Shown here: piece after piece, positions 4,574 through 13,299 of the stretch
Layout of the letters: the number at the start of each line of letters is the position of its first letter
Numbering within the stretch: the first letter of the stretch is position 1
NCBI GenBank assembly: GCA_030532025.1
Contig: JAUNLY010000003.1
Coordinates: 1-39,566 of the forward strand
Origin: Eubacteriales bacterium
GTDB lineage: Bacteria; Bacillota; Clostridia; Christensenellales; Aristaeellaceae
Reading direction: 5' to 3'
DNA: 39,566 nucleotides
Translations under genes and position numbers: made by a program
The notes under the pieces: generated by a model
Told to the model about the DNA's origin: nothing
The model's input: only the letters and a program-made list of their open reading frames with translations
Databases searched by the model: none

Positions 4574-4618
4574 AAACAACAAGGCACCTGCAAGGGTGCC
4601 TTGTTGTTTGCTTTTTTC
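4574..4618 (+). terminator. Rho-independent terminator of ppdK
   Basis: A 15-bp perfect stem AAACAACAAGGCACC (4574-4588) with its complement at 4595-4609, a 6-nt loop, then GCTTTTTT. It sits between convergent ppdK and gtrA and may also stop the opposing transcript, although the T-tract favours the plus strand. Confidence 0.92.
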
Positions 4619-4660: not shown

Positions 4661-5155
4661 TTAATGCTTTTTCTTTCTAAATACCACAAAGCGACTGGCG
4701 AAGTAGTTGAATATTACTACAAGCACATTCATAAGTATTTTTACTATGCCGTGGGGTATGTTGAATACATATATGCAAAAATTATATAGCGCTAAGTCAA
4801 ACAGCAAAAAGCTCAAGACCCTTGCGGATACAAACAGTATAAACTCAAGCCGTTGGCTTTTTGTGTCTGTGGAAGTAGCTTTAAATACATAGCGGCGGTT
4901 TGTGAAAAAGGCGAACAACACGCTTAAAATCCAGCCAAGGGAGTTTGATATGTTTAGTATTGCCGCATGCTCAAAGCTGCCTTTTAAATAGTTTTCGGGC
5001 TTAAGCAGAAATGTGAGCGAAAAGTAGACAAACCAGTTTACAAGGGTTGTAAGCACGCCAAATACAACGTATATAATTACCTGTCGCAGGTTTTCGTTTT
5101 GAAGAAGCTTTTGTATTTTTTCGCTTTCAATAAATTTCTTTATTTTTTGTTTCAT
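4661..5155 (-). CDS. GtrA family membrane protein
   Basis: 164 residues, four predicted membrane helices (about 25-48, 66-88, 104-122, 132-157) and a charged N-terminus and C-terminus (FRKKKH). This is the size and pattern of GtrA proteins, which are proposed to flip polyprenyl-phosphate-linked sugars or to help transfer them. Motifs include FGVLTTLVNWFVYF and FFTNRRYVFKA, both typical of the family. The ATG overlaps the upstream stop (ATGA), with AAGGAG before it, so it is the last gene of the envelope operon. Its partner is likely the GT-C-like protein two genes upstream. The sugar is unknown. Confidence 0.9.
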   Translation of the reverse strand: MKQKIKKFIESEKIQKLLQNENLRQVIIYVVFGVLTTLVNWFVYFSLTFLLKPENYLKGSFEHAAILNISNSLGWILSVLFAFFTNRRYVFKATSTDTKSQRLEFILFVSARVLSFLLFDLALYNFCIYVFNIPHGIVKILMNVLVVIFNYFASRFVVFRKKKH

Positions 5156-5394
5156 TGGTTCTCCTTGTTAAACAGCTCAAGCTCTCCGCTGTCGCCACGG
5201 GAATAACCTAAGCTTAGTAGTTGCTGTTTTTGTATTGTAGCAGGCGTTTTTAGTTTTGCTGTGCTGTAAAATATAGTATCACCCTGTATTTCTTTTACGG
5301 TGATATTGGCCTGCTTTATCTCGTCGTTTTCAAGCCATATGGCTTTTATTTTTTTGCCATAGCGCAGTGAATAATTTAAAAAACGCTCAATCAT
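5152..5394 (-). CDS. Small conserved-looking hypothetical protein (80 aa)
   Basis: 80 residues, soluble, with no signal peptide or membrane segment. It starts MIERFLNYSLRYGKKIKAIW, followed by short alternating beta-like stretches (ANITVKEIQGDTIFYSTA) and a tail YSRGDSGELELF. The pattern suggests a small mostly-beta, WYL- or SH3-like fold, but this is inference and no family was recognised with confidence. It overlaps the upstream glycosyltransferase-like gene by 8 nt and the downstream gtrA by 4 nt, which argues strongly that it is translated and functionally tied to them. A regulatory or adaptor role in the operon is possible. Confidence 0.75.
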   Translation of the reverse strand: MIERFLNYSLRYGKKIKAIWLENDEIKQANITVKEIQGDTIFYSTAKLKTPATIQKQQLLSLGYSRGDSGELELFNKENQ

Positions 5395-7333
5395 AATTTG
5401 CTTTAAACACAGCTATTGCGTTGTCATTATAAACTACAGGGTATATAGCTGCAAGTTCCTGCATGTCTGCACCGTATTTGGCAAGCTCATGAGGTGTAAA
5501 TAGTATATAGTCCACGCCGTATTTATTTAAAATATCTTTACTGTCTTCAGGCGAAGAATAGAAAAGCCGTATGTCGCTTTCGCGCTCGCCTATATTAAAG
5601 CCGTGGTAATAAAGCCACATAGCGGGGCCGCACACTATGCTTCTGCCTGCTAAAGACGATACGGGGTTTATATGCTGTGTACCGGTTAAGAACAAGGCGT
5701 TATCTTCAGTGTTTTCTTCAACCCACTTTGCAAGTCTTACATCTTCCTGTGAAAACATCTCATAATCGCTTTTTATTTCTCTTGTTATAGAAAGCGTGCC
5801 AGTCAAGAAAAACACTATGCAGGATAGTATGGCGATAGCTTTGCGGGATTTTAGGCCTTTTAATCTATCCAAAAGAGAAAAAGCATATTCTGAAACAGCT
5901 ATGGTGCAAAGCGCATACCACACGTAAAAAAGCTTGTTGTTATCGTAAATATTCGGCTGGAAACGTATGAACTCCGCTGGTATAAATATCATAAACGCGC
6001 CGAGATATATAAAGCGGTGCTTTTTATTGTTTTCAAAAAGTGAAAATATAATGAGCAAAAATGGCAAGCCTATGTTTTTTACATAAAACCAAATATAGGG
6101 GTCTTTTAAGCCGCTTCCGCTGTTGTTTACCCAGTTGAAGTGCAGGCTTAAAAAATGCTCGCTTGCAGAGGACTGCTTAAATGTAAACATAAACAACTGT
6201 GGCAAGGACAGTGCTCCTGCAACTGCAATATAGATAAGCCAAGGCTTTATGTTTTTATGTTTTATAATATCCCATAAAAACCAAGCGAAACTTAAAAGCA
6301 CGAGCGCCAAAAAACTGTGCGTATGTATAAGCGGTAGGCTTCCGCCGATAGTGCCAAGAAGTACAATTTGTTTGGTGTCGTAAGTTTTTTCTTTGATAAA
6401 ATCGTACATTAAATATATGCAGGGGAATATAAACACCCAGCCCGCAAGGAATGTGCGTTGCGGCACGAGCATATCCACTATTATATTGCTCCAGCGCAGG
6501 TTGTATGTGTCAAACTCCGCGTGGTTTGCGGGCGTCTGGTACCAGCCGTTTAAAATTGTGTTAAATCGCTCAAACCAAGTGCCGAGCTTAAGCTCGTTGC
6601 TGCCGGGGCTTCCAAGGTTAATTCCCGCCATATCCAAAGAATATAAAAATCCAAGGCCGCCGTTTATAAAAAGCAAAAGTGCTGCAAGCACAGCAACACG
6701 TTTTTGCCCGCTTATTCTAAGCGCTAAAAGCATAAAGCCCGCAAATACAAGCAGCATCATAATAGCTGCGGGGAATATCATGCTAAAGCGTAGGCTTGTG
6801 CCAAAAAGCATAAAGCTTGTTGAAAGGCTGTCTGCTAAAAAAGGATAGGATAATCTCTCTTGAGGAAATATGCTGTAAATTGGCGGGAACGGTTTGTTTT
6901 TAAGCGAGGTGGCAATGGATAAATGCAGAGGCAAATCCCCATAGGTGGATTGGCCGACGTGCAAACTGCCGTCAACGGGACGCAGAATATGCGTGTGCAA
7001 AAGATAAATCCCTATAAATGTAAGCGGTACTGCGACAAGAGTCACGATTTTTAGATCGCTCTTATCCTTATTCGTAAATTGCCAAGAGGGTTTATATTTA
7101 CCTAAAACTGTTGCAATTACTGCTGTAACGCATGCAAGCCCTAAGGCGATAAGGTTTGATAATATAGAAAACGGCATAAAAAACGAAGCTAAAGCCGGTA
7201 ACCACATCATAAGCAGTAGCCCCAAAACAAGGCCTATCCAAAGCCTGTATAAGATAGTCTTTTTAGGGATTACTTGGTTTATAATAGCTATACCGCACAG
7301 TTCAAACGATAGGAATACGAAAACTGCCGTCAT
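5387..7333 (-). CDS. Multi-pass membrane protein, GT-C glycosyltransferase-like
   Basis: 648 residues, with about 12 or more hydrophobic segments through residue 530 and then a soluble C-terminal part. After the fourth helix comes a loop with YGDLPLHL (Asp133, His137), resembling the acidic motif that GT-C enzymes use to bind polyprenyl-phosphate sugars. The C-terminal region (DNALFLTGTQH, then RSIVCGPAMWLYYHG, then YGVDYILFTPHE) resembles the soluble tail of YfhO/GT-39-like membrane proteins. The likely role is sugar transfer on the outer face of the membrane from a lipid-linked donor. The start overlaps the acyltransferase stop by 4 nt. Neither donor nor acceptor can be named. GT-C assignment is moderate; membrane topology is clear. 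Confidence 0.7.
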   Translation of the reverse strand: MTAVFVFLSFELCGIAIINQVIPKKTILYRLWIGLVLGLLLMMWLPALASFFMPFSILSNLIALGLACVTAVIATVLGKYKPSWQFTNKDKSDLKIVTLVAVPLTFIGIYLLHTHILRPVDGSLHVGQSTYGDLPLHLSIATSLKNKPFPPIYSIFPQERLSYPFLADSLSTSFMLFGTSLRFSMIFPAAIMMLLVFAGFMLLALRISGQKRVAVLAALLLFINGGLGFLYSLDMAGINLGSPGSNELKLGTWFERFNTILNGWYQTPANHAEFDTYNLRWSNIIVDMLVPQRTFLAGWVFIFPCIYLMYDFIKEKTYDTKQIVLLGTIGGSLPLIHTHSFLALVLLSFAWFLWDIIKHKNIKPWLIYIAVAGALSLPQLFMFTFKQSSASEHFLSLHFNWVNNSGSGLKDPYIWFYVKNIGLPFLLIIFSLFENNKKHRFIYLGAFMIFIPAEFIRFQPNIYDNNKLFYVWYALCTIAVSEYAFSLLDRLKGLKSRKAIAILSCIVFFLTGTLSITREIKSDYEMFSQEDVRLAKWVEENTEDNALFLTGTQHINPVSSLAGRSIVCGPAMWLYYHGFNIGERESDIRLFYSSPEDSKDILNKYGVDYILFTPHELAKYGADMQELAAIYPVVYNDNAIAVFKANYD

Positions 7334-9354
7334 TTGCTGTCACCCCCGGCTAAATCAAGTATCCTCTGCCGCAGCTCTTTACATATGCGCTCGGTTTCAT
7401 CGCGGGAATCGTTATCGGGGTTATATTCCACATAGTCTCCAAAGCTTAGGCGGCGGCGCTGTTTATCCGCATAAACGGGTATAAAACGACAACGCTTGCC
7501 GGTTTTTTGGTAGTAGATAGGGGCGACGAGCGTAAAGCCTGTAAAAAACTCACCTATTCCGCTGCGCAAATACAGGTTGTTGCGGCTTTCGTCCGCAGGG
7601 TTTTCGGGGAATATTAAAATATCGTCACCCGCCTGCATACATATAGCTGTTTCACGGAATGTTTTAATCAAAAGTTTGGGATTATCTCGGTACACGGGTA
7701 TGCCGTAGGCGGAGTGCATAGCCCAGTTTACTATGGGTGCGGTAAATTTAGCTAAAGGTAGCTGCCATGATTTTGGCATCCATTTTTGGCGCATAAATGT
7801 GCCTTCGTAGATATGCTGTAGGGTAAGGCTTTTATCCATCATTCTGTCTGCAATCCAAGGGCGGAAGGGGAAAGGCATATATATATAGCAACACATGGGG
7901 CCGTAAAGCTCACCGTGGTTGCATATAAATACGTTGCTTATTCCGTCGTTGGTTGGGACTTTTTCTTCTCCCACAATTTGAACGCGCATAAATATGCTTA
8001 CAAACTTGCTTAAAATATTTAGCCCGTAGCGTTTTCTGCTTACTTTTACTATAACGTTTTCAAGCTGTTTTTGCAGGGGGGCATTGGTTTCGCCGTTTTT
8101 TGTAAGCAGCATATAGTCGTGAAGCTTTTTAAGATGATTTTTTGTAAGCGGGAAGCGCAGTGCTGCAAGCCCTGTGGCTATAGCCAACACAAGTGCCGGC
8201 AGTATAAGTGCCGGTTGCAATACGCTTGAAGTGCTTAAAGAAGCATCGTATTCAAAAAAGCTTAAAAGCGCAAGGCCTATTAATGCGAGCATCTGCCCGA
8301 ACATGGAGGCATAGGCTATTACTATGGGTTTAGTCTGTTTTATTTGCTGCAATGTTTCTTTGTCTATTGCAAAAAGAAGCACTTCCTGCATATTCTTTTC
8401 AAGGCGCGAAAGTGCTGCCATGCTTAATAGTATTCCTGCACTGCAGGAAGCCAAGGACAGATAGCGCAATGCTTGGCTCTGGTCCTTAAGCTCTTGCCAG
8501 AAAACTATAAGGCTGAATATCCATAGTGCAAGCCCGAGCAACAATGTGTTGTTTGTGTCGCTTTCTTTAACCTGTGCTATAAAGAAGTTAACAAGCTGTA
8601 CTATAACAAAGCTTGCGAGTATAGCCACAAGGAACGCAAAAAACACCGTATCAGCTGTGGTCGCTATAAATGAGAATATAAGTATCTGAGTTATTTGCAG
8701 TGCTGCAACAGAAAGAACAAGCAGGCGTATAAAGGCCTTATAGGCATTTATGGTGTTTGCCTTTTGCACAGCATCGGCGTTTACGGCTGTTTTTTCGTAG
8801 TAAAAGCCGCGGGATTTTGACAGTATAACGGCTTCAGCTAATGTGTTTATAAAGTATGCACCTGTTAAATACCATGCGGTTTGGTTGTTCTGCGTGGAAA
8901 ACAAAACTATTGCGACTATAATTAAAAACACTGTGGACAGCTCCGCTGTGCGTATACCCCTTTGAACGCCCGACATTTTATAGGTGATGGGGGAGTTTAT
9001 AAGTCTGTTTAGCGTAACGGAGCGCAGCCAAGTAGCAAGCACTATTGCAAATAGCACCCACGCACTCGGCAAAGCGCTTTGTTTTGGGTAAAACAAAATT
9101 AAAGCTATACTAAAAAGAAAGCATATGACTGTAAGCGTATATATTATGATGCGCTCTTTTTTGCCTAAAATTTCGCGGCGGCTCCTGTCAAATATGTATT
9201 TGCTCGCAAGCCCTGCAACCTGTGCTGCAATAAAAAGCGCACCGCCGAAAATAGGCCTTTGCGTTAAAGCGTTTGAAGCTAAAATACAGAATATAAAGTT
9301 ATAAAGCGTAATAAGCGAAGGCATCAGCAAGGAAACGCCTGCCGGAAAAACCAT
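7330..9354 (-). CDS. Membrane-domain / PlsC-like acyltransferase fusion
   Basis: 674 residues. Residues 1 to about 400 hold 10-12 hydrophobic helices in an MFS-like arrangement. Residues about 440-670 form a cytoplasmic glycerolipid-acyltransferase-like domain. Motif I reads CNHGELYG: His480 is present, but the Asp expected at H+5 (HX4D) is Gly485. Motif II is GIPVYRDN, motif III is FPEN (582-585) and motif IV is FIPVY. The layout recalls transporter-acyltransferase fusions such as LplT/Aas, which move and re-acylate lysophospholipids. Here it may acylate a lipid or glycolipid intermediate. AAGGAGG precedes ATG 9354; the next gene overlaps by 4 nt. Loss of the Asp could mean altered chemistry or a divergent subfamily. 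Confidence 0.8.
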   Translation of the reverse strand: MVFPAGVSLLMPSLITLYNFIFCILASNALTQRPIFGGALFIAAQVAGLASKYIFDRSRREILGKKERIIIYTLTVICFLFSIALILFYPKQSALPSAWVLFAIVLATWLRSVTLNRLINSPITYKMSGVQRGIRTAELSTVFLIIVAIVLFSTQNNQTAWYLTGAYFINTLAEAVILSKSRGFYYEKTAVNADAVQKANTINAYKAFIRLLVLSVAALQITQILIFSFIATTADTVFFAFLVAILASFVIVQLVNFFIAQVKESDTNNTLLLGLALWIFSLIVFWQELKDQSQALRYLSLASCSAGILLSMAALSRLEKNMQEVLLFAIDKETLQQIKQTKPIVIAYASMFGQMLALIGLALLSFFEYDASLSTSSVLQPALILPALVLAIATGLAALRFPLTKNHLKKLHDYMLLTKNGETNAPLQKQLENVIVKVSRKRYGLNILSKFVSIFMRVQIVGEEKVPTNDGISNVFICNHGELYGPMCCYIYMPFPFRPWIADRMMDKSLTLQHIYEGTFMRQKWMPKSWQLPLAKFTAPIVNWAMHSAYGIPVYRDNPKLLIKTFRETAICMQAGDDILIFPENPADESRNNLYLRSGIGEFFTGFTLVAPIYYQKTGKRCRFIPVYADKQRRRLSFGDYVEYNPDNDSRDETERICKELRQRILDLAGGDSK

Positions 9355-9377
9355 TGATTACCTCCTTAAAATTGCTG

Positions 9378-9917
9378 CTATATCGCGGGCGATTTTTTGT
9401 CGTCCGCAGTCTTAAAGAAACGCTCTCGCCTGTTTTTTGGCAGGTAGCGCAGAAGCTGTTTGCACACATTGCCTGTTATAAAGCCCATGACTATTCCGGC
9501 AAGCATAAGTATTGCCATGTAATATAGTAGCTTTCCTGTTCTAAGCTGCCACATGGCAACGCCTATCTGCCCTACATTGTGAAGTACAGCCCCTGTTATA
9601 GCGGCACCTAAAGGGCTTACACCTTTTATTAAATATACAACAAGAATCATACCGAGCATAGATAACACGCCCCCCGCCAAGCTATAAAGCATGGCGTTTG
9701 GGTTTGCGAACAAATAGCCACTTAAAAATACCTTTGAAAGCATAAGTGTAAACGAAAAAGGCACGCCCAACCAATAGAGCGAAAGCAAAAGGACGCTGTT
9801 TGCAAGCCCTAATTTTATACCGGGTACGCCAAGCGGTATGAGGGATTCTATATAACCCAGCACCAGCATTACCGCCAAAAACATGGCGCCTAAGGCTATG
9901 CGGTTTGATTTGTTCAT
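9378..9917 (-). CDS. Gx transporter / heptaprenyl diphosphate synthase component I family membrane protein
   Basis: 179 residues with 5-6 membrane helices. The hallmark GVPGIKLGLANSV, then a second half with HNVGQIGVAMW and a basic tail PKNRRERFFK, identify the Hpre_diP_synt_I (Gx transporter) family. Some members were named as a component of heptaprenyl diphosphate synthase. Others look like S-components of ECF-type transporters and often lie beside NusG-domain-II, ApbE or Rnf genes, none of which are here. AAGGAGG precedes ATG 9917. First gene of the minus-strand envelope operon. The real function of the family is uncertain; a link to isoprenoid lipids would fit the downstream GtrA and GT-C-like genes. 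Confidence 0.85.
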   Translation of the reverse strand: MNKSNRIALGAMFLAVMLVLGYIESLIPLGVPGIKLGLANSVLLLSLYWLGVPFSFTLMLSKVFLSGYLFANPNAMLYSLAGGVLSMLGMILVVYLIKGVSPLGAAITGAVLHNVGQIGVAMWQLRTGKLLYYMAILMLAGIVMGFITGNVCKQLLRYLPKNRRERFFKTADDKKSPAI

Positions 9918-9980: not shown

Positions 9981-10010
9981 ATTATCGTATATGTTAATAG
10001 CGATTGTCAA
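9981..10010 (-). promoter_or_regulatory. Promoter of the envelope operon
   Basis: Read on the minus strand: a perfect -35 TTGACA (10010-10005), an 18-nt spacer and -10 GATAAT (986-981 in 9981-9986). This gives a leader of about 55 nt before the Gx-family gene. No other promoter is visible in the five overlapping genes, so it probably drives all of them. Confidence 0.75.
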
Positions 10011-10480: not shown

Positions 10481-11617
10481 ATGAAAAAATTACTCGGTAT
10501 CCTTCTTAGCGTAACCTTGCTTCTGTCAATGGCAAGTTTTGCTGTAGCGGAAGAAAACTGGAAAGTCGCCATCATGACCGGTACGGTTTCTCAGGGTGAA
10601 GAAGAATTCCGCGCCGCGGAAAAATTATTAGAAAAATACGGCGCAGAACACATTGTAACGGCCACCTATCCGGACAACTTCATGTCCGAAATGGAAACAA
10701 CCGTTTCACAGCTTGTAGCCTTCGGCTCCGACCCCGAAGTAAAAGCCATAGTAATGTGCCAGGCAGTTCCGGGCGCCAAAGCGGGCTTTGAAAAAATCCG
10801 CGAAATGGGCAGAGACGATATTCTTCTCATAGCCGGTACCGCACAGGAAGACCCGATGGACATAGCCGGTGCATCCGACATAGTCCTTTACGCAGACGAA
10901 GCGATACAGGGCGACCTTATCATGCAGAAGCTCGTCGACTGGGGCGTAGACGTATTTATACACTATTCATTCCCGCGCCATATGGCAATGGAACTTATCG
11001 TTGCAAGGCATAACCTGCTCACAGCGAACGCCGAAGCTTTAGGCATCGACATGGTAGACGTAACCGCTCCCGACCCCACGGCGGAAGCAGGCCTCTCCGC
11101 TTCACAGCAGTTCATTCTTGAAGACGTGCCGCAGCAGATGGCAAAATACGAAGGCAAGAAAGTAGCTTTCTTCACAACCAACTGCGGTATGCAGCCCTCG
11201 CTCCAGACAGCAGTTCTTAAAGAGCCCAATGCATACTATCCGCAGCCTTGCTGCCCCAGCCCCTACCACGCATTCCCCGCAACCTTAGGCCTTGAGCTTG
11301 AACCCGGTGCCGATAACGAAGATGCCCTCAAGCAGATCGCCAAGAAGCTGGACGAAAGCGATGCGGTCGGCAGGTTCTCAACATGGGCAGAACCCGTAAA
11401 TATGACCATCATCGACGTAGGCGTTGACTATGCAATTAAGTTCATCAAGGGCGAAGTCGCAGAGAGAAACAACTCTGAAGTTCTTAACGCCATACTTGCT
11501 GAAAAAGCCAATGGTGCGAAATTCAACAAATTCGTCAACTCCGAAGGCGTAGAGCTTGATAACTACTATCTCATAGCGCTTCCTCCGGTAAACTTCGCAG
11601 ATTACCTCGAGAAGTAA
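10481..11617 (+). CDS. DUF3798-type ABC transporter substrate-binding protein
   Basis: 378 residues. Signal peptide (MKKLLGILLS, then LLLSMASFAVA, cleavage before EENW) with no lipobox Cys, so a freely exported or periplasmic protein is predicted. The mature part has a periplasmic-binding-protein I-like alternation: WKVAIMTGTVSQGEEEF, KAIVMCQAVPGA, and KVAFFTTNCGMQPSLQ followed by PQPCCPSPYHAFP. These stretches match my knowledge of the DUF3798 family. It starts an operon with a two-NBD ATPase and two permeases, so it should deliver the substrate to that importer. CAGGAGGT sits about 7 nt before the ATG. The ligand is unknown; by analogy to the related nucleoside/sugar BMP-type systems it may be a nucleoside- or sugar-like molecule. 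Confidence 0.85.
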   Translation: MKKLLGILLSVTLLLSMASFAVAEENWKVAIMTGTVSQGEEEFRAAEKLLEKYGAEHIVTATYPDNFMSEMETTVSQLVAFGSDPEVKAIVMCQAVPGAKAGFEKIREMGRDDILLIAGTAQEDPMDIAGASDIVLYADEAIQGDLIMQKLVDWGVDVFIHYSFPRHMAMELIVARHNLLTANAEALGIDMVDVTAPDPTAEAGLSASQQFILEDVPQQMAKYEGKKVAFFTTNCGMQPSLQTAVLKEPNAYYPQPCCPSPYHAFPATLGLELEPGADNEDALKQIAKKLDESDAVGRFSTWAEPVNMTIIDVGVDYAIKFIKGEVAERNNSEVLNAILAEKANGAKFNKFVNSEGVELDNYYLIALPPVNFADYLEK

Positions 11618-11637: not shown

Positions 11638-11670
11638 AATACAGCCCGCCCGATGTGGGCGGGCTGTATT
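11638..11670 (+). terminator. Intra-operon hairpin after the binding-protein gene
   Basis: A 14-bp perfect, GC-rich stem AATACAGCCCGCCC with its complement, and loop GATGT. It is followed by TATTTA rather than a long T-run, so it is probably a partial terminator or a 3' RNA-stabilising hairpin that keeps the binding protein more abundant than ATPase and permeases. The ATPase ribosome site AAGGAGG begins 5 nt after it. Confidence 0.8.
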
Positions 11671-11688
11671 TATTTAAGGAGGCCTGTT

Positions 11689-13299
11689 TTGAAAACAGAA
11701 TATATACTTAACATGCAGGGGATAACCAAGCGTTACGGCGAAAACACCGTGCTTGAAAATGTCAACCTGTCTGTAAGACCGGGGGAAATTCATGCCTTGC
11801 TCGGTGAAAACGGCGCAGGTAAATCCACTCTGATGAACGTGCTCTTCGGTATGCCTGTTATACACAACACCGGCGGTTTTGAAGGGCAGGTTCTTTTAGA
11901 CGGTGAGAATGCCAACATAACTTCCCCGCACGATGCCATGAAAAAGGGCATAGGCATGGTGCACCAAGAGTTCATGTTGCTCCCGGAATTTACTATATCC
12001 GAAAACATAAAACTCAACCGCGAAATAACAAACTCAAACCTCGTCAGCCGTATACTTAATAAAAACCTTGAAACCTTAGACATGCCTAAAATGGCTAAGG
12101 ACGCAAGGAAAGCCTTGGATGATGTTGGTATGGGTATTGATGAATATGTTCAGGTTGCGGGTTTACCTATAGGCTATATGCAGTTTATTGAAATAGCCAG
12201 GGAAATAGATAAGACGGGCGTAAAACTGCTCGTTTTTGACGAGCCTACGGCTGTGCTTACGGAGTCCGAAGCTGATCAGCTTATATCCGTAATGAAAAAA
12301 ATTGCCGCAAGTGGTATCTCCATTATATTTATAACCCACAGGCTCGATGAGGTTATAGCTGCCTCTGATGTCGTCACTATACTGCGCGACGGCAAAACGG
12401 TAGCAAACCTTAAAACCAAGGACGCCACGGTGCTTACTCTTGCGGAACTTATGGTAGGCCGTCAAGGCGAAGGCATGGTGTCTACGGAAAAACGTGCAAT
12501 TCCAAAAGACGCCAAAGTAGCTATGTCTGTGCGCAACCTTTATGTTGATATGCCCGGCGAAGAAGTAAAAGGCGTAGACTTTGACGTCTACGAGGGCGAG
12601 ATTTTTGGCATAGGCGGCCTTGCGGGGCAGGGCAAGATAGGTATTCCAAACGGCATAATGGGGCTTTATGAGGCTTCTGGCGAAGTAAAGCTCTTTGGTG
12701 AACCGCTTCAGATAGGCGACCCTAAAAAGGCGCTTTCTGCAGGCATATCCATGGTATCAGAAGACAGGAAAGGCGTAGGCCTTATGCTTGACCAGTCCAT
12801 TAAAAACAATATCGTATTTAACGCTATGGAGATTAAAGGCGAATACCTGCGCAAAATACTTTTCTTTACGCAAAAAAACGAAGCCGAAATCGACAAACAG
12901 GCGCAAGATATGATAAAAGAGCTTGATATACGCTGCTTTGGCCCGCAACAGGCGGTAGGGACTCTTTCGGGCGGCAACCAACAAAAGGTATGTATAGCAA
13001 GGGCGCTTACCATGAAGCCTAAGTTTTTATTCGTTTCAGAGCCGACCCGTGGAATAGACATAGGTGCCAAACGCTTAGTACTTGAGACGCTTTTAAAACT
13101 CAGCCGAGAGGAAGGTATAACCATCGTCATGGTATCCTCAGAACTTCAGGAGTTGCGCTCTATTTCCGACAGGATTGCTATAGTATCGGAGGGGAAAATA
13201 GTAGACATACTCCCGCCTGATGCTTCAAGTGCGGCTTTCGGCCTTGCCATGAGCGGCATAAAACCGGATGAGCATACCGATGAGGAGGCCAAAGCATGA
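11689..13299 (+). CDS. ABC importer ATPase with two nucleotide-binding domains (RbsA/NupO type)
   Basis: 536 residues. TTG at 11689 is chosen as the start because AAGGAGG (11676-11682) lies 6 nt before it; the upstream in-frame ATG at 11653 is inside the hairpin. NBD1 has an intact Walker A (GENGAGKST) and Walker B (LLVFDEPTA) but a degenerate signature (LPIGYMQ). NBD2 has a degenerate Walker A (GLAGQGKIGI, no Ser/Thr after Lys) and Walker B (LFVSEPTRG, Ser in place of Asp) but an intact signature (LSGGNQQK). The two halves therefore build one canonical and one degenerate ATP site, as in other sugar/nucleoside (CUT2/BMP) importers. The stop overlaps the permease start (ATGA). It powers uptake of the DUF3798 ligand. 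Confidence 0.93.
   Translation: MKTEYILNMQGITKRYGENTVLENVNLSVRPGEIHALLGENGAGKSTLMNVLFGMPVIHNTGGFEGQVLLDGENANITSPHDAMKKGIGMVHQEFMLLPEFTISENIKLNREITNSNLVSRILNKNLETLDMPKMAKDARKALDDVGMGIDEYVQVAGLPIGYMQFIEIAREIDKTGVKLLVFDEPTAVLTESEADQLISVMKKIAASGISIIFITHRLDEVIAASDVVTILRDGKTVANLKTKDATVLTLAELMVGRQGEGMVSTEKRAIPKDAKVAMSVRNLYVDMPGEEVKGVDFDVYEGEIFGIGGLAGQGKIGIPNGIMGLYEASGEVKLFGEPLQIGDPKKALSAGISMVSEDRKGVGLMLDQSIKNNIVFNAMEIKGEYLRKILFFTQKNEAEIDKQAQDMIKELDIRCFGPQQAVGTLSGGNQQKVCIARALTMKPKFLFVSEPTRGIDIGAKRLVLETLLKLSREEGITIVMVSSELQELRSISDRIAIVSEGKIVDILPPDASSAAFGLAMSGIKPDEHTDEEAKA

Follow-up and report, generated by a model that had tools for sequence, protein, structure and literature searches.

Multi-component transmembrane glycosylation, in its three-component form, combines a GtrB-type synthase, a GtrA flippase and a GT-C transferase, and is exemplified by CsbB-GtcA-YfhO and GtlA-GtcA-GtlB in Bacillus and Listeria and by CsdA-CflA-CsdB in Lactococcus (PMC8035078). 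Here we compare with these systems a run of five genes, designated A to E (Table 1), on contig JAUNLY010000003.1, analysed as a window of 39,566 nucleotides (nt) from a genome labelled G000. An earlier note on this DNA had read the five genes as one pathway that might build or modify an acylated glycolipid, and had found no named pathway with such a set. The second statement no longer holds: C (a predicted GT-C glycosyltransferase), E (a GtrA-family protein) and a GtrB-type synthase encoded elsewhere in the genome match the three-component scheme. We consider it likely that these three proteins form a transmembrane glycosylation module, with the small protein D aiding C. The kind of system is already known; what is new is the GT-C family represented by C, its restriction to a single order and its small conserved partner D, for which a limited literature search found no earlier description.

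The assignment of C to the GT-C class, which the note had proposed from the sequence, is borne out by structure prediction. An AlphaFold model computed from an alignment of 78 homologous proteins (pLDDT 92, pTM 0.93) was compared with the PDB by Foldseek, and the top 24 matches were all GT-C enzymes or complexes containing one: DPY19 ranked best (7zlh, E-value 8.6e-10), and AglB, STT3, PglB, AftA and AftD were also among them. On this model, C has the GT-C glycosyltransferase fold. A different fold for the 648-residue protein, which the note had named as a refutation of its reading, was not obtained. The model helices and the positions of Lys and Arg residues suggest that C spans the membrane with 14 helices and has its N-terminus outside, which would place the invariant residues in outer loops and the dome formed by residues 524-648 on the outer side as well. 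Identical in 78/78 aligned sequences are D133, H137, D234, R256, R280, D287, R293, N400, N403 and D411, as well as K419, E454, D464, N465 and K467, and the charged residues among them cluster in the predicted outer loops. D133 lies within the motif YGDLxLH, with H137 at +4, while D121 is found in 45/78 sequences. A direct sequence search of the PDB with C returned mainly calcium-channel gamma subunits, which were treated as membrane-helix noise.

As the closest solved structures are DPY19 and the oligosaccharyltransferases AglB, PglB and STT3, C might be a bacterial protein glycosyltransferase of this type, placing a single sugar on secreted proteins, possibly on tryptophan. Pfam points the same way: Dpy19 is the sole family above its cut-off for C (E 3.1e-7, 29.4 bits against a cut-off of 27.2) and matches 14/38 members, and its cut-off was exceeded in 0/14 well-known control genomes. 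The match is, however, limited to residues 467-613, that is, to the last membrane helices and the dome, the core of which is common to oligosaccharyltransferases and arabinosyltransferases (PMC10154233), and no sequence-level match of C to DPY19 was found in the PDB. D133 could correspond to Glu71 of DPY19, a position where Asp is tolerated (PMC10154233), but the ExE motif was not found in the outer loop 116-170, where D133 is the lone invariant Asp, and the helices appear to number 14 rather than 13. C-mannosylation, moreover, has been described only in metazoa and alveolata (PMC6801728). Taken together, these points make a DPY19-type activity for C improbable in our estimation.

The presence of AftA (1.0e-5, TM 0.49-0.53) and AftD among the Foldseek matches raises the further thought that C builds polymers, as these mycobacterial enzymes do, and contributes to a lineage-specific arabinan- or mannan-like lipoglycan with a donor made, for example, by a fusion of a GT2 glycosyltransferase to GtrA; a 389-residue fusion of this kind is indeed encoded in the window genome (see below). 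We think this very unlikely: no conserved wall-polymer gene set was recognised beside C in its relatives, and E, flipping a simple polyprenyl-phosphate sugar, would suit the decoration of an acceptor with single sugars equally well or better.

Homologs of C occur in 78/120 related genomes, belonging to several families of its own order, whereas a sample of 299 other genomes from across the phylum yielded none; by this distribution, C represents a lineage-restricted GT-C family, confined to one order. An alignment-based search of genome_contigs recovered at least 577 stretches that encode relatives of C, the closest coming from Christensenellaceae and Clostridia metagenome-assembled genomes, whereas a search of the same collection with the single C sequence gave no match. 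Among 38 members of the family, no Pfam match to YfhO or PMT_2 was found at E 0.1.

The product of D, an orphan for the note, is seen from its distribution to be a conserved partner of C. It was found in 36/78 C-bearing genomes and in 0/42 C-lacking ones (Fisher 8e-9, ancestry ignored), two C-lacking genomes giving weak matches near E 1e-4, and in nearly all linked loci its start falls between about -8 and +12 nt relative to the stop codon of C. It matched no Pfam family. Its AlphaFold model (pLDDT 88) consists of one helix followed by five strands, and nearly all the top Foldseek matches are Hfq (E 6.7e-3, above 0.001; probability 1.00; TMq 0.57), with CapW and GerQ scoring similarly. Profile comparison with Escherichia coli Hfq, using a hand-entered Hfq sequence, detected no similarity. 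D is thus best regarded as a predicted small Sm/SH3-like barrel that resembles these proteins in fold only; its tail, YARGDDG, is conserved.

G011 and G058, which belong to the same genus, have D away from C, behind a gene of the beta-lactamase family (PF00144) that it overlaps by 11 nt (L157 7481-7753 and L158 7424-7678). This displacement suggests that D can serve, or couple to, another envelope gene.

Linkage of the five genes was counted over 81 loci with C – the 80 nearest to the C of the window, plus outgroups for the tree – and only loci with enough flanking sequence entered each count, so that the counts lean towards close relatives. D lies directly downstream of C, on the same strand, in 68/79 loci, and E follows in 30/76, always accompanied by D. 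B is directly upstream of C in 12/78 loci and A upstream of B in 3/68, in each case within one clade, and the full five-gene set is conserved in three species only. Mapped on a FastTree tree of C (91 rows), linkage requires a minimum of one change for A, two for B, three for D and five for E, and the arrangements are nested: C alone on the outer branches, then C-D, C-D-E, B-C-D-E and finally A-B-C-D-E. The five genes are therefore not one conserved pathway but the product of nested, clade-specific accretion, in which C-D and C-D-E are the wider cores and A and B lineage-specific neighbours. Upstream of C-D-E, genera g14 and g15 encode a conserved 424-residue protein starting MSEFLAPL (L182 5329-6603, L186 9241-10515).

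A natural deletion adds to this picture. G001, a genome of the same genus as the window genome and 97% complete, yielded no C, B, D or stand-alone GtrA; its sole GtrA domain lies within a frame of 376 residues, similar in size to a GT2-GtrA fusion. GtrB is retained at 61% identity, as is A, on another contig. B, C, D and E are thus jointly absent from G001, while A and GtrB are not.

These counts also bear on the reading put forward in the note, a single pathway for an acylated glycolipid. Spelled out, it would have C glycosylate a lipid, B acylate or flip that lipid, and A help to supply the polyprenyl carrier. The apparent single transcription unit with its short overlaps, the position of B close to or overlapping C in 12 loci and its loss alongside C, D and E in G001 are all consistent with such a pathway. 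Set against them are the clade-limited linkage of B and A, the occurrence of full-length B unlinked to C in many C-bearing genomes and the more usual partners of A, which are NusG_II and FMN_bind genes. Since the linkage is confined to single clades, the acyltransferase gives no argument for a lipid acceptor of C, contrary to what the note had drawn from it; B is tied to the acceptor only by that one-clade linkage and by being missing from G001 along with C. The acylated-glycolipid pathway is accordingly not supported, and we judge it decidedly unlikely.

B itself could well combine a lipid acyltransferase with a transport half. In its C-terminal half, which was compared with acyltransferases of the PlsC/AGPAT type, the window protein falls just under the cut-off for PF01553 (E 1.1e-4, 22.5 against 23), and the domain is present in 12/12 aligned members (best 3.2e-9); the membrane half is weakly MFS-like, MFS_1 being matched in 1/12. 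The HX4D catalytic motif was not found in B: within CNHGELYGP (residues 478-486), His480 is followed by G-E-L-Y and then Gly485. Members read NHGE(L/V/I)(Y/W)GP, with Gly in place of the Asp wherever a member covers the site and Glu482, at +2 from His480, nearly invariant. Comparison by hhalign gave no match to E. coli LplT (probability 0.8) and a very weak one to Aas (4.2). Full-length B is common in the family and mostly unlinked. As an observation apart from C, the acyltransferases with NHGExxGP (residues 478-486 of B) and FPENP (582-586) in place of HX4D may form an atypical group, and stand-alone relatives of about 230-300 residues are common across the order.

A belongs to Hpre_diP_synt_I (PF07456, E 2.6e-30), and its homologs, found in 103/120 related genomes, are mostly located elsewhere: in three checked cases (L175, L178 and L180) they lie beside NusG_II, and in one of these beside FMN_bind too. 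A study of the cAD1 locus has reported the family near ApbE and redox genes in Enterococcus (PMC7074142). The position of A upstream of B is recent and probably incidental, and A probably stands outside the glycosylation pathway. A role for A as supplier of the polyprenyl carrier was considered and set aside, as the gene is usually unlinked and has redox-type neighbours.

With A and B set apart, there remain C, D, E and a synthase. E matches the GtrA family (PF04138, E 1.1e-15). The note had rightly taken the GtrA and GT-C proteins together to point to polyprenyl-phosphate sugars; it had also predicted that the missing synthase would lie elsewhere, and a search of the genome located a candidate. 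Among the three GT2 proteins of the window genome, one, on contig C31, is a GtrB-type protein of 313 residues that matches the solved GtrB sll0501 over its full length (E 2e-87, residues 6-309). Its best NCBIfam match is PgfS (4.6e-79), followed by ArnC (2.2e-44), both under their equivalog cut-offs. A predicted polyprenyl-phosphate sugar synthase is therefore present in the window genome, unlinked to C. GtrB-type matches were found in 76/78 C-bearing genomes and a GtrA domain in 78/78; in both genomes of genus g15 (G019 and G062), C shares its contig with a GtrB-type gene at a distance of about 2 kb, and at L124 such a gene lies 2.2 kb upstream of C. The C31 GtrB-type gene has the same neighbours in G000 (contig C31, L166) and G001 (contig C10, L165); judged by eye, they are an NYN/LabA-like gene upstream, and ferritin-like, potABC-like transporter and murG-like genes downstream.

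The proposed module would work as follows. The unlinked C31 enzyme would load one sugar onto polyprenyl phosphate at the cytoplasmic face of the membrane, and E would flip this lipid, with its sugar, to the outer face. There, C would receive the sugar in a site to which its outer loops and its C-terminal dome both contribute, and pass it to an extracytoplasmic acceptor – a wall polymer, a lipoglycan or a protein. D, a putative cytoplasmic barrel encoded by a translationally coupled gene, would aid C in assembly, stability or regulation. The direction of this flow, the feeding of E and C by the C31 enzyme and the role of D are what we infer from the computed fold, families and linkage. The literature on Christensenella envelope glycans held nothing usable about the acceptor.

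Several observations weigh against the module. E follows C in only 30/76 loci; C and GtrB are unlinked in the window genome, and GtrB is also found in C-lacking genomes, so that it may serve other enzymes. Two C-bearing genomes, G017 and G096, gave no GtrB match at 1e-20. The 389-residue GT2-GtrA fusion on contig C143 of the window genome (6856-8025; L154 1381-2550; L167), synthase-like in one part and flippase-like in the other, could be an alternative maker of the donor, and GtrA domains in frames of about 340-400 residues, near the length of the fusion, occur in many relatives. The co-occurrence statistics are confounded by ancestry. As for C, its TM-scores against solved GT-C proteins are moderate (0.36-0.53) despite the strong E-values, and a strict DxD motif was not found in the first outer loop across the alignment of 78. 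Even so, a module of GtrB, E and C aided by D remains the reading that we consider likely. A bolder proposal sees in C the founder of a separate, order-restricted GT-C family that relies for its activity on D, a dedicated cytoplasmic Sm/SH3-like protein of a sort that no transmembrane glycosylation system is known to contain. This strikes us as rather doubtful; in its strongest form, with C as the first bacterial DPY19-type enzyme, adding a single sugar to secreted proteins, it is much less likely.

The layout of the locus stands as the note had given it: according to the open reading frame listing, the five genes lie on the minus strand from 9917 down to 4661, the last four overlapping by 4 nt (B/C), 8 nt (C/D) and 4 nt (D/E). 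They can be taken as genuine genes, because each protein has homologs in other genomes. The 23 nt between A and B hold a good AAGGAGGT-type ribosome site. A promoter-like sequence lies upstream of A (Table 1), although the count of such sites in the region is not raised against shuffles, and the hairpin beyond E has a folding energy of -24.5 kcal/mol (4609-4574; z -5.9) that no shuffle equalled, its minus-strand T-run being the weaker one. Transcription of A to E as a single unit is plausible on these signals. An Rfam search of the region found no RNA. Beyond A, the window encodes a divergent DUF3798 (PF12683) protein at 10481-11617 and an ABC-transporter-like gene set onward to about 20466, with an ATPase-like open reading frame at 11653-13299; the DUF3798/ABC region is conserved beside A in the two nearest species.

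Table 1. Genes and transcript signals of the locus, with positions in the window
Feature	Position	Strand	Length (residues)	Remarks
A: Gx/'heptaprenyl diphosphate synthase component I'-type membrane protein	9378..9917	-	179	PF07456
B: polytopic membrane half fused to atypical acyltransferase	7330..9354	-	674	PF01553; clade-specific neighbour
C: predicted GT-C-fold membrane glycosyltransferase with C-terminal extracytoplasmic dome	5387..7333	-	648	Core of the module
D: predicted soluble protein, N-terminal helix and five-strand small beta-barrel (Sm/SH3-like)	5152..5394	-	80	Conserved partner of C
E: GtrA-family protein, proposed polyprenyl-phosphate sugar flippase	4661..5155	-	164	PF04138
Promoter-like TTGACA-18-GATAAT upstream of A	9981..10010	-		11/12 consensus matches, best in region
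Hairpin between E and the convergent pyruvate phosphate dikinase gene	4574..4609	-		Terminator-like in both directions

What had looked like an operon for a single pathway is thus a layered assembly, the outermost genes of which are recent neighbours. Its C-bearing relatives come chiefly from ruminant guts and digesters, and little work has been done on the chemistry of their envelopes; the analysis offers a short and testable list of genes for one glycosylation at the outer surface, namely C, D and E together with the unlinked GtrB. It also adds a GT-C family that escapes the Pfam models save for the partial Dpy19 match, and gives a former orphan a predicted fold.

Compared with the three-component systems, the window genome has the synthase, the GtrA-family flippase and the GT-C transferase, the service of the C31 synthase to C being our proposal, and its parts may be scattered, as GtcA often is. 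It differs in keeping the GT-C protein and the flippase together and the synthase apart, and in that C, which belongs to neither the YfhO nor the PMT_2 family by Pfam, comes from a family confined to one order and accompanied by a barrel protein. The Pgf system of Streptococcus mutans (PgfS, PgfM1, PgfE and PgfM2; PMC5856776) shares with the locus a synthase of the PgfS kind, in so far as PgfS is the best, sub-cut-off match of the C31 protein; in contrast, PgfM1 is of the PMT_2 type, the Pgf operon lacks GtrA and its acceptor is a protein.

Among membrane glycosyltransferases, DPY19 and STT3/PglB/AglB share with C the GT-C fold and a C-terminal extracytoplasmic dome, yet C is bacterial and order-restricted, probably has three extra N-terminal helices and, as regards DPY19, resembles it in sequence over no more than the last helices and the dome and lacks its ExE. 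B recalls LplT-Aas, fusions of which are known (PMC11416262), in joining a transporter-like membrane half to an acyltransferase; it differs in having neither the Asp of HX4D nor an AMP-binding domain, nor any detectable similarity to LplT, and very little to Aas. Finally, D, if its model is right, would share with Hfq and other Sm-like proteins a helix and a bent five-strand barrel; it differs in its YARGDDG tail, not known from Hfq, and in lacking profile-level similarity to E. coli Hfq.

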